Shown here: positions 1-58,604 of the stretch, one piece after another
Layout: every line of letters begins with the position of its first letter
Position numbering within the stretch: position 1 is the first letter of the stretch
Assembly (NCBI RefSeq): GCF_001570585.1
Contig: NZ_BBXF01000001.1
Span: 186,001 to 250,000, forward strand
Length of the DNA stretch: 64,000 bases
DNA from: Herbidospora daliensis
GTDB taxonomy: Bacteria; Actinomycetota; Actinomycetes; Streptosporangiales; Streptosporangiaceae
Reading direction: 5' to 3'
Notes under the pieces: generated by a model
The model's database searches: none
Told to the model about the DNA's origin: nothing
What the model saw: the letters and a program-made list of their open reading frames with translations, nothing else
Program-made: the position numbers and the translations under genes

Positions 1-2955
1 TCGTCGACCCCGACCGACTCGCGGCCGAGGACGTGCGCGAACACCGCGCACAGCGCCGCCTCCCGCTCGTCGGCGGGCTCCCTCCGGACGACGGGGCGAT
101 CGGGCTCGGGGAGGGCCCGGCGGTCGAGCTTGCCCGAGGCGGTCAACGGGAGCTCGTCCAACGTGACGAAGGCGGCGGGGACCATGTAGGCGGGCAGGCG
201 CTCGGCGGCGAACTCCCGCAGCCCCTCGGTCTGGCCGACGACATAGGCGATCAGGCGGTCATCCCTGGCCAGGACCGCAGCCTGTGAAACATCCGGACAT
301 CTCAGCAGAACGGATTCGACCTCACCGGGCTCGACCCGGAACCCGCGCACCTTGACCTGGTCATCGGCCCGGCCCAGGTACACGAGTCGCCCGTCTGGGG
401 TCCACCTCGCCAAGTCGCCGGTACGGTACATGCGCTCCCCCGCCGCAAAGGGCGAGGCCACGAACCGTTCGGCGGTCAGAGCGGGCCGGGAGACATACCC
501 CCGCGCCAGACCGGCCCCCGCCACATAGAGCTCCCCGGCCACCCCGGGCGGGAGCGGGCTGAGAGCCTCATCCAGCACATACAGATGCGTGTTGGCGATC
601 GGGGTGCCAAGCTCGACGTCGGCGGTAAGTTCCGCAGTGGTCACGCCGATGGTCGTCTCGGTCGGCCCGTAGTGGTTGAAGACGCGCCGGCCCGTGGCCA
701 CCAGCTCGGCCACCCACTCCGCCGAGGCCGCTTCCCCACCCAGGACCAGCGAATCGGCCGGCATCAACCGCTCGACCCCCACAACCGAGGTCAGCGCCGC
801 CAGATGCGAAGGCACCGCCTTGAACGCGTCGATCCGATGCTCGGCCAGATACGCCGCCACCAGTTCGGGATCGGTGACAGCCTGTTCATCCAAAACGTGC
901 AACACGCCGCCGGTCGCCAGGCTGATGAACACCACCGTGTTCCCCAGATCGGTCACCTGAGGCTGAAGCAGCGCATACCGGGTACCCGGCTCACTCCAAC
1001 CCAGCCGGGCCGACACCGACGCGACGTAGTTGGCCAACCCCGCCTGAGTGACCGCCACCCCCTTCGGAGTCCCGGTCGAACCAGAAGTGAAGATCACATA
1101 AGCCAGATCGCCGTCACCTTCAGTCAGGTCCCCGGCCCCGGCTTCGGCCTCTACCTCAGGAAGGTCGGACAGGTCGTCCAGCACCATCTCCACTCCGGCG
1201 TCGGCCAGCATCGCCTCCACCCGCGAGACGGGCAGATCGGGATCGATCGGCAGATACGCGGCGCCGACCTTCCACACACCCAGAATCGCCGCGATCATGT
1301 CCGCGCCACGCGGCAACCGCAACCCCACCACCGTCGCACCCGCCACCCGGGCCGCGACCCTCCGGGCGCACTCGTCGAGTTGCCGATAGGTCAGCTCACG
1401 GCCGCCGGCGACCACGGCCACCGCGTCCGGACGCAGCGCCACCTGCCGCTCGAACAGCCGCAGCACCGGCTCCGCCGCCACGTCGGACGCGGTGTCGTTC
1501 CAGGTGCTCAGGAGCGCACGGACCTCGTCGCCGAGCACGTCCACCGAGCTCAGGGCCGGGTCGGGGGCGCCGTCCAGGGTCTCGGCCAGGGCGGCGGCCA
1601 CGTTCGCCGCCGCCACGCACATCAGCCGCCCGACCTCGCGCCCGTCCGTCTTCCCCGAGGTCAGGACGCTCAGGCTGAGCCCGGCCGGGCCCCGGTCGTT
1701 CACGGACACGGTCAACGGGTAGCTGTTCTGGACCCGCGAGTAGACGTTGCGCACCCCGTCGATCGACACCCGCCGGTCGGCGGCGTCGGCCTCCGTCCCG
1801 CCGATGTGCCGGTAGTTGAACAACGAGGTGAACAGCGGCGTGTTGCCCTCCAGGCCCGCCGCCTGCTGAGCCAGGGCCAGCGGCGCGTGCTCGTGTTCCA
1901 GCAGACCGGCCAGCTGAGCCCGCATCCCCTCCACGGCCTCCCGGACACCGGCACGACCCGAACGCACCCGCACCGGAAGGGTGTTGATAAAAGGCCCCAC
2001 CACCCGATCCGAACCCTCACCCGCGTTCATCCGCCCGAACAACACCGTCCCGAACACCACGTCGTCGCGGCCCGACACCACTGACACCACCCGCGCCCAC
2101 GCCACATGCATGATCGTCGCCACGCTCACGCCGAGGTCCCGCGCCGCAGCGCGGAGCACGGCGGTCGTCTCGGCCGGGATCGGGACCTGTTCGGCGACGA
2201 CGTCGCCGCCGTCGCCGTGCACGTCGGTCAGGCCGTAGGGGGCCGTGGTCTCGGTGACGCCGTCGAGCAGGTCGGCGAAGAAGCGTTCGTGCTCCTCGCG
2301 GGAGACCCCGCCGCGAGCCTGGGCGACGAAGTTGCGGAACGGGAGGGCCGGGGCGAGTTCGCCGCCGCCTTCGAGGACCGTCCAGAGCTCCTGGACCAGC
2401 ACGTCCATGCCCTGGTGGTCGGAGACCATGTGGTGCATCCTGACCAGCCCCAGCCAGCGGCCGTCGGCCGAGGGTGCGACGTGGAGGTCCATCAGGGGCG
2501 CCCGGCTGAGGTCCATGCCCGGCCCGGCCGCCGCGAGCAGGGCCTCCACCGGCTCCCCGGTCAGCGTGTGCTCGGTCACCGGCAGGGAGGCCCGCCGCCA
2601 CACGACCTGGACCGGCTCACGCAGCCCTTCCCACACCACGCCCGTCCGGTAGACGTCGTGGCGGTCGACGACCTGCTGAAGTGCGGCGGCGAAGGCGTCG
2701 AGCCGGGACCGCGTGTCGAACTCCAGCATCTGGACGGTCACGTAGGCGTCCACGCCGTCTCCGGCGAGAAGGTGGTGGAAGAGCATGCCCTCCTGGAGGG
2801 GGGCCAGCGGATAGACGTCCTTGACGTTGGCCGCGCCGCCCTCGGCCGAGGCGACGACCCGGTCCAGCTCCGCCTCCGTCAGGTCGACCAGCGGGAGCAT
2901 GTCGGGCGTGATGGTCTCCGCGCCGTCGGGGATGCGGTTGGCGGGCACCTCGACC
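1..2955 (-). other. Module B11: dual E/C-A-T (T cut by window edge), Asp predicted
   Basis: The E/C-type domain begins near 2816 with [11 protein letters not shown] and has a central HHMVSDHQG. The A pocket D-L-T-K-V-G-H-I-G-(K) is the exact Asp signature. The T domain stops at VGVDD, just before its phosphopantetheine Ser, because the window ends. Confidence 0.85.
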
Positions 2956-58300: not shown

Positions 58301-58604
58301 CCCGCATCCACGCCGCCGCCGCCGCGAACGGGTCGGGCTCCCCCGACAGGTCGGCGACGTGGACCGGGATTCCGGCCGCGGGGTCGACCCGCTGGCGGGG
58401 TATCCCGTCGGCCACGTCGAACCGGAGCCGGTAGGCGTCGGTGCGGTCCATGACGTGGCGCAGCGCGGCCGCCAGCAGCCCGGCGTCCAGGCCGGCGAAC
58501 TCCAGATATTCGCCGACATTGTAAAGTCCCGCGTCCCCCGCGACCTCCTGGGCGTACCAGAGACCTAATTGGGCGGACGTCAATTCCTGCGGCTCGGCGG
58601 TCAT
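49224..58604 (-). CDS. NRPS, three modules (C-A-T, C-A-T, E/C-A-T), probable starting synthetase
   Basis: A 3,126-residue protein. Domains by approximate residue: C 1-430, A 450-930, T 935-1000 ([10 protein letters not shown]), C 1030-1450, A 1470-1965, T 1985-2045 ([10 protein letters not shown]), E/C 2095-2520, A 2540-3030, T 3035-3100 ([10 protein letters not shown]). It ends just after the last T, with no thioesterase, so the chain must go to another protein, most simply the giant NRPS. The first C domain differs from all others ([28 protein letters not shown]) and resembles N-terminal C domains that accept a starter acyl group. Predicted order Phe, D-Asp, Asp. TGAGGG precedes the ATG; StrR-like operator 3 lies about 125 bases upstream. 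Confidence 0.95.
52440..55550 (-). other. Module A2: C-A-T, Asp predicted (D after epimerisation)
   Basis: C domain with HHITGDG. The pocket D-L-T-K-V-G-H-I-G-(K) is the exact Asp signature. The T domain is GGNSL rather than GGHSL, as often seen before epimerising domains, and the following domain is the E/C type, so D-Asp is inferred. Confidence 0.87.
55620..58604 (-). other. Module A1: starter-like C-A-T, Phe predicted
   Basis: The pocket D-A-W-T-V-A-A-V-C-(K) is a standard Phe signature. The C domain keeps a complete HHxxxDG motif (HHLILDG), so it is probably active and may acylate Phe. No acyl-activating enzyme or free carrier protein is present in the window to say with what. Confidence 0.83.

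Follow-up and report, generated by a model that had tools for sequence, protein, structure and literature searches.

The 64,000-bp window analyzed here (Herbidospora daliensis, assembly GCF_001570585.1, contig NZ_BBXF01000001.1, positions 186,001 to 250,000 of the forward strand; contig coordinates are marked C1) carries much of a nonribosomal peptide synthetase (NRPS) assembly line. An earlier note on this DNA described a synthetase pair for an acidic peptide containing hydroxyphenylglycine (Hpg); the observation is confirmed, and its interpretation is supported in part. Two NRPSs do lie in the window, but the pair is part of a trio whose third member lies beyond the left edge. The three enzymes, composed of condensation (C), adenylation (A), thiolation (T), dual condensation/epimerization (C/E), and thioesterase (TE) domains, probably make an antibiotic-like peptide of 22 residues that is very acidic and carries chlorine and sulfate.

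49224..58604, minus strand: NRPS1, 3126 aa; starter C-A(Phe)-T / C-A(Asp)-T / dual C/E-A(Asp)-T, with the tail RPRLRPMR; s01-orf155 of PMC4599437
1..33803, minus strand, continuing 192 bases past the left edge: NRPS2, 11331 aa; modules 4 to 14, with dual C/E domains at 7, 8, 10, and 14; s01-orf140 of PMC4599437
C1:160267-185811, minus strand, off-window: NRPS3; modules 15 to 22 and TE; overlaps NRPS2 by 4 bases

Together the enzymes carry 22 C-A-T modules (3 on NRPS1, 11 on NRPS2, and 8 on NRPS3), each with its own A domain, and NRPS3 closes with the only TE motif. The 14 modules within the window account for the "14-plus" of the earlier note. In this count, the T pattern recognized 21 of the 22 modules, module 8 being the exception, and weak C domains escaped the C3 pattern; the C and A totals were completed by domain searches. 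Chance does not explain the module order: in Herbidospora solisilvae all 22 modules recur in identical arrangement, with 21 of 22 A-domain codes identical and one V/I difference. A-domains with like codes are up to 89-93% identical (modules 14/20, 8/12, 12/21, and others), and modules therefore appear to have been recently duplicated or homogenized. Large antisense open reading frames (ORFs), as long as 3649 aa, that lie within the NRPS genes were taken as G+C artefacts.

Pocket reading of the A domains gives Phe, Asp, Asp, DVEFQGTVT, Asp, Ser, and DALSVGAVI for modules 1 to 7, and DALSVGAVI, DALSLGTVM, DASTVGAVD, DALWWGVVF, DALSVGAVI, DASTVAAVC (Tyr), and Asp for modules 8 to 14, reproducing the residue order first noted. 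Code-to-residue assignments follow in part the usual meanings of such codes, the classical ones included. For the vancomycin cluster in Amycolatopsis orientalis KCTC 9412, used as a control, the same pipeline returned DAFYLGMMC, DTSKVAAIC, DLTKLGEVG, DIFHLGLLC, DAVHLGLLC, DASTLGAIC, and DPYHGGTLC, an order that agrees with the residue order of vancomycin. A peptide mass of 2833 Da was computed without residue 4, the acyl group, and decorations; a product of about 3 kDa is thus predicted, well beyond the 1.6 kDa originally given as a lower bound.

Seven dual C/E domains, at modules 3, 7, 8, 10, 14, 18, and 20, share the signature DVYPLxPLQ(E/Q)G, so that D residues are predicted at positions 2, 6, 7, 9, 13, 17, and 19; the first five of these agree with the earlier note. 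No epimerization (E) domain was found in the line, and the vancomycin control shows E domains. The signature also marks the dual C/E positions of a ramoplanin-like line in A. orientalis, whose D positions agree with those of ramoplanin. That 17-position line (G650:C42:24258-82278) lies in the genome that also holds the vancomycin cluster; alongside its A-less module 8 are a stand-alone Thr A domain, a halogenase, HmaS, Hmo-HpgT, and two StrR-like genes. NRPS1 opens with a C domain that is 44% identical to the first C domain of this line and similar to it at the start; it is a predicted starter C domain for N-acylation.

The motif RPxLRPMR ends NRPS1 and NRPS2, as well as both non-final NRPSs of genomes G163 and G197. 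In the A. orientalis ramoplanin-like line it ends one of the two non-final NRPSs, the other having RPALRRMR. It is absent from the listed NRPSs of vancomycin, G139, G164, and G292, and the enzymes that bear the TE in G000, G163, G197, and the ramoplanin-like line also lack it; it is perhaps a docking tail. Such tails stand on non-final NRPSs of lines with dual C/E domains in G000, G163, G197, G271, G252, G650:C42, G166, and G203. About 15 kb of tailoring genes separate NRPS1 from NRPS2, as might be expected if NRPS1 served a pathway separate from NRPS2 and NRPS3. Such a division is very improbable: the starter C domain is in NRPS1, which lacks a TE, NRPS2 has neither, and the TE is in NRPS3 alone, tails and starts match, and the arrangement is repeated in G163 and G197. 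The three NRPSs belong together in one line, whose chain start and putative docking tails put it in the ramoplanin lineage, though outside the ramoplanin family.

Supply genes for Hpg and dihydroxyphenylglycine (Dpg) flank the synthetases on both sides once the region is extended past both edges of the window.

60668..63103, minus strand: Hmo-HpgT fusion (FMN_dh plus aminotransferase), Hpg supply
63072..64000, minus strand, crossing the right edge to window position 64184: HmaS (HPPD-like), presumably Hpg supply
C1:156567-157637, off-window left: DpgA
C1:157984-159405, off-window left: DpgC
C1:159426-160184, off-window left: DpgD

DpgB is represented off the left edge by a weak match only, below the Pfam cut-off, and ORF o24 was rejected as antisense to DpgD. 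The names HmaS, Hmo, HpgT, and DpgA-D, like StrR, TEII, and MacA below, are customary labels placed on Pfam families; the Hmo-HpgT pathway roles are likewise assumed, and HpgT presumably also serves Dpg.

DALSVGAVI occurs at modules 7, 8, 12, 17, and 21, and DALSLGTVM at module 9 only; both differ from the classical Hpg and the classical Dpg codes. A Trp assignment, suggested by likeness to a Trp code, was rejected, as aryl-glycine genes accompany DALS codes. Of 297 genomes in the family, 10 have close A domains (E<=1e-130). The searches behind the HpgT-like sequences, the close A domains, the G411 matches, and the related starter C domains scored the best 3 to 5 candidates per genome; an HpgT-like sequence is among the matches listed for 9 of these 10 genomes (the exception, G203, is a 740-contig draft), and DpgA is present in 8 of the 10 and was not found in G201 and G294. 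On the contigs read, G201 and G294 each have one DALS code, DALSVGAVI, together with HmaS and Hmo-HpgT. In G411 (S. griseoviridis JCM 4250), all four listed domains are of the GTV type, DpgA is present, and the sole HmaS match is HPPD-like at 37%. We therefore put at roughly two in three the probability that the GAV form specifies Hpg and the GTV form Dpg; six residues formerly unassigned or assigned to Phe would then probably be Hpg (DALSVGAVI) and Dpg (DALSLGTVM). It is rather unlikely that all DALS codes select Hpg, with the Dpg genes serving another product or persisting as a relic. The GTV form in only 1 of 22 modules (module 9) favors this alternative, as do the classical Hpg (DxxHLGLLC) and Dpg (DPYHGGTLC) codes read from vancomycin, which differ, and the lack of a known-product anchor for the split. 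The Hpg/Dpg split offers, in testable form, codes for these residues unlike those of vancomycin; no paper on the five unusual A-domain codes was found in the open-license PMC literature, the literature searched throughout.

Two other lines carry such codes. In an S. varsoviensis cluster (G651:C33:10001-50000), all seven A domains read are DALS or DALN (five GTV, one DALSVGAVI, and one DALNLGAVI); it adjoins HpgT, DpgA, and DpgC, has HmaS on other contigs only, and is a candidate for an all-aryl-glycine peptide. At G139:C1:2138118-2206065, a 16-module aryl-glycine line with Hpg-type and DALS codes, E-type domains, and Hpg and Dpg genes repeats the block Tyr-DVAMSAAVI-DALSVGTVI-DALSVGAVI.

The halogenase and two different hydroxylases of the earlier note, like its Hpg supply, were found. 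Its single StaL-like sulfotransferase was also recovered (ST1), but as one of two sulfotransferase-like genes.

42686..44293, minus strand: CmlA-type diiron beta-hydroxylase (PF18456, 1.4e-82)
44705..45709, plus strand: TauD/TfdA-type oxygenase with HNE motif, candidate Asp beta-hydroxylase
47129..48622, plus strand: flavin-dependent halogenase of glycopeptide/lipodepsipeptide type
37083..37877, plus strand: ST1, StaL/Teg14-type sulfotransferase
37874..38692, plus strand: ST2, sulfotransferase homologue

The two oxygenases are strongly conserved among the tailoring enzymes compared: the CmlA-type enzyme is 87% identical in G197, 85% in Nonomuraea turkmeniaca, and 83% in G252 (Actinomadura sp. 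NBRC 104425), and the TauD-type enzyme 77%, 79%, and 81%, respectively (the G197 and H. solisilvae comparison listed matches of at least 35% identity). The halogenase, whose best solved relative is 3e1t (1.9e-172), has 65-82% homologues in other Hpg clusters, under thresholds of 38% identity and half of the query; identity reaches 82% in N. turkmeniaca and is 79% in G252, whose gene sits some 70 kb away from the line and may serve a different one. No relatives of the halogenase were found in a viral-contig search.

ST1 combines homology to Teg14 (E 3e-44) with an intact P-loop (YPRSGNTW) and catalytic His motif (KTH), as expected of StaL/Teg sulfotransferases. ST2 also matches Teg14 (E 1.5e-21) and has lost both P-loop (SCRQSGSAT) and KTH. 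The pair occurs in four of the five genomes that share the starter domain, and in all four the ST2 motifs are lost, the P-loop reading CRQ or GRQ and the KTH position RTY, KAD, or KTT; ST2 is a probable pseudoenzyme. Between the two Herbidospora species, the ratio of nonsynonymous to synonymous substitution rates (dN/dS) is 0.375 for ST2 (from 13 synonymous and 13 nonsynonymous changes), and 0.28 for ST1, within a range of 0.04 to 0.53 across eight further genes; ST2 thus looks constrained, on small counts. The pair would be a natural case of a dead sulfotransferase retained beside a live one, and we know of no earlier active/dead sulfotransferase hetero-pair in peptide antibiotic biosynthesis in the literature searched.

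The closest known lines are those for ramoplanin-type lipodepsipeptides and glycopeptides. In ramoplanin-like lines, D residues are set by dual C/E domains without E domains, as seen in the A. orientalis control. Shared with ramoplanin and enduracidin are the starter C domain, dual C/E rather than E domains, RPxLRPMR-type tails, the Hmo-HpgT fusion, HmaS, putative StrR-like regulators, halogenase, ABC exporter, and TE (51% to the A. orientalis homologue). Ramoplanin is basic, and enduracididine is a basic residue of enduracidin. The line differs, however, in its seven Asp residues, its lack of any predicted basic residue (module 4 being unread), Dpg supply, CmlA/TauD pair, and sulfotransferases. 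Enduracidin (PMC13320435) and ramoplanin (PMC8949500) each have 17 modules, of which module 8 lacks an A domain and depends on a stand-alone A-T protein acting in trans, whereas here there are 22 modules, all with A domains; the A-less module 8 and stand-alone A domain were recognized in the A. orientalis control. Ramoplanin has the basic residues Orn4 and Orn10 (PMC13194151), but the codes at 4 and 10 here are DVEFQGTVT and DASTVGAVD, against DMETDGSVN in the control, a difference that rests on position 10, module 4 being unread. The departure from the ramoplanin order seen in the earlier note is thus upheld, as is that from the heptapeptide glycopeptide plan. Hpg and Dpg supply, halogenase, StaL/Teg14-like sulfotransferase, and StrR-like regulators are shared with glycopeptides (vancomycin, A47934/StaL, and the teg cluster), but there are 22 modules, and no C-like domain that could be an X domain lies between the last A domain and the end of NRPS3, where vancomycin shows one. 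No cytochrome P450 was found among 39 translations scanned, which are part of the region's ORFs, some in wrong frames. Feglymycin, which is anti-HIV and has an acidic C-terminus, likewise contains aryl-glycines. It is a 13-mer with Hpg and Dpg residues (PMC5133696), against 22 modules here. Calcium-dependent lipopeptides carry an Asp-X-Asp-Gly motif in which X is a D residue; no Gly code occurs among the 22 modules, and Asp-X-Asp-D-Ser stands in its place. Membership was thus tested for ramoplanin, glycopeptides, feglymycin, and DXDG lipopeptides, and the line fits none of them.

Residues 3 to 6 might nevertheless belong to a calcium-dependent-type acidic lipopeptide synthetase in which a D residue replaces Gly. 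The starter C domain, the strong acidity, and retention of Asp3-X4-Asp5-D-Ser6 with the same dual C/E placing in G197 speak for this; the missing Gly code and an X that is L here, against D in the known motif, make it unlikely. In G197, dual C/E domains number seven by motif and eight by score, the module 23 C domain scoring as dual C/E and missing the motif. Five genomes, H. daliensis included, share the starter domain, and an Actinomadura line of 27 modules matches the first seven positions (one differing) with the same D pattern there. These lines may, speculatively, form a distinct family, with the H. daliensis line as its founding member, whose products would be polyanionic acylated aryl-glycine peptides of very large size (22 to 27 residues), with a common acyl-Phe-D-Asp-Asp-X-Asp-D-Ser-D-Hpg head, two conserved hydroxylases, and sulfation by an obligate active and dead sulfotransferase pair; the acidic head would bind metal or a cationic envelope target, unlike the basic ramoplanins. 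Asp-rich lines at G203:C735, G166:C43, and G264:C9, with codes DTWTVASVD, DNLSEGTVD, and DALS, related starter C domains, and RPxLRPMR-like tails, are perhaps a broader acidic group.

Several observations weigh against reading the locus as a line for a chlorinated, sulfated acyl-peptide rich in Hpg and Dpg. The decorations may not be general: no halogenase was found in the G197 stretch examined, and no sulfotransferase match on the N. turkmeniaca contigs examined. The starter C assignment follows from the 44% identity to the A. orientalis starter, no acyl-ACP ligase was recognized among the ORFs scanned (those of about 140 aa and longer, a size range that would miss a stand-alone ACP), and the G252 line starts Asp-Asp without Phe. 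The position 4 code has no residue assignment, a ring or a linear product from the TE both fit the sequence, and the line has no known product. A clean Hpg/Dpg split is disturbed by G411, which keeps an Hmo-HpgT fusion at 52%, by G653, with GTV types, one DALSRGSVI, and a 41% HmaS, and by DMFHIGLVW in G201 and G294, which could be Hpg; the split is based on few genomes, fragmented drafts, and part of the G201 and G294 A domains.

The remaining genes of the locus are the following.

33987..36260, minus strand: FtsX/MacB-type permease, start codon uncertain
36269..37084, minus strand: ABC transporter ATPase (PF00005), probably paired with the FtsX permease; the true start probably lies within this span
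38689..39882, minus strand: MacB-like permease (FtsX, MacB_PCD)
39879..40580, minus strand: MacB-like ATPase
40577..41722, minus strand: MacA-like adaptor with peptidoglycan-binding domain, adaptor role inferred from position
41879..42679, minus strand: alpha/beta hydrolase, probable type II thioesterase (family match)
44483..44635, plus strand (C1:230483-230635, span of the domain match): MbtH-like protein
45706..47037, minus strand: Na+/H+ exchanger family protein, with homologues near other Hpg supply genes (same thresholds as for the halogenase)
48655..49173, plus strand: small protein with a lipoprotein-like start (our reading), homologues 40% in N. turkmeniaca and 47% in G252
58824..60752, plus strand: ABC exporter (membrane plus ATPase)

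A 1291-aa ORF (33987-37862, minus strand) was rejected as a single gene, since it extends the frame of the FtsX permease across the ATPase and ST1 region. A VanS-like histidine kinase (L004:1240-2682) matches below the NCBIfam cut-off, with no response regulator among the neighboring ORFs scanned; its 63-65% homologues lie beside TE or HmaS in G197, N. turkmeniaca, and NBRC 104425.

The same locus was described in 2015 as nrps-12, with ORFs of 3126, 11331, and 8503 aa and 22 modules in the same order, in a genome of 8,523,669 bp on 18 scaffolds (PMC4599437). That paper leaves 7 of the 22 residues as x (4, 7, 8, 10, 12, 17, and 21) and reads module 9 as Phe, whereas the GAV/GTV split reads Dpg; parts 1-4 of its 5 parts name no stereochemistry and no tailoring or supply gene. 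It calls nrps-12 strain-specific, yet in its Table 2 the first NRPS has a 96/97% homologue in Herbidospora NRRL B-16917, and the whole line is present in H. solisilvae. The module order was thus already in print, and the aryl-glycine assignments for six residues are new here; no isolated product was found for the locus or its relatives in the literature searched. As far as found here, the product, its chemistry, and the wider gene family appear unstudied.

Ramoplanin-type lipodepsipeptides and glycopeptides are lipid II binders (PMC10886168). The type strain is publicly numbered (NBRC 106372), and the product can therefore be sought directly. Lines of 22 to 27 modules would rank among the larger bacterial NRPS lines, and a conserved, strongly acidic branch of this size would widen the chemistry of the ramoplanin/glycopeptide lineage.
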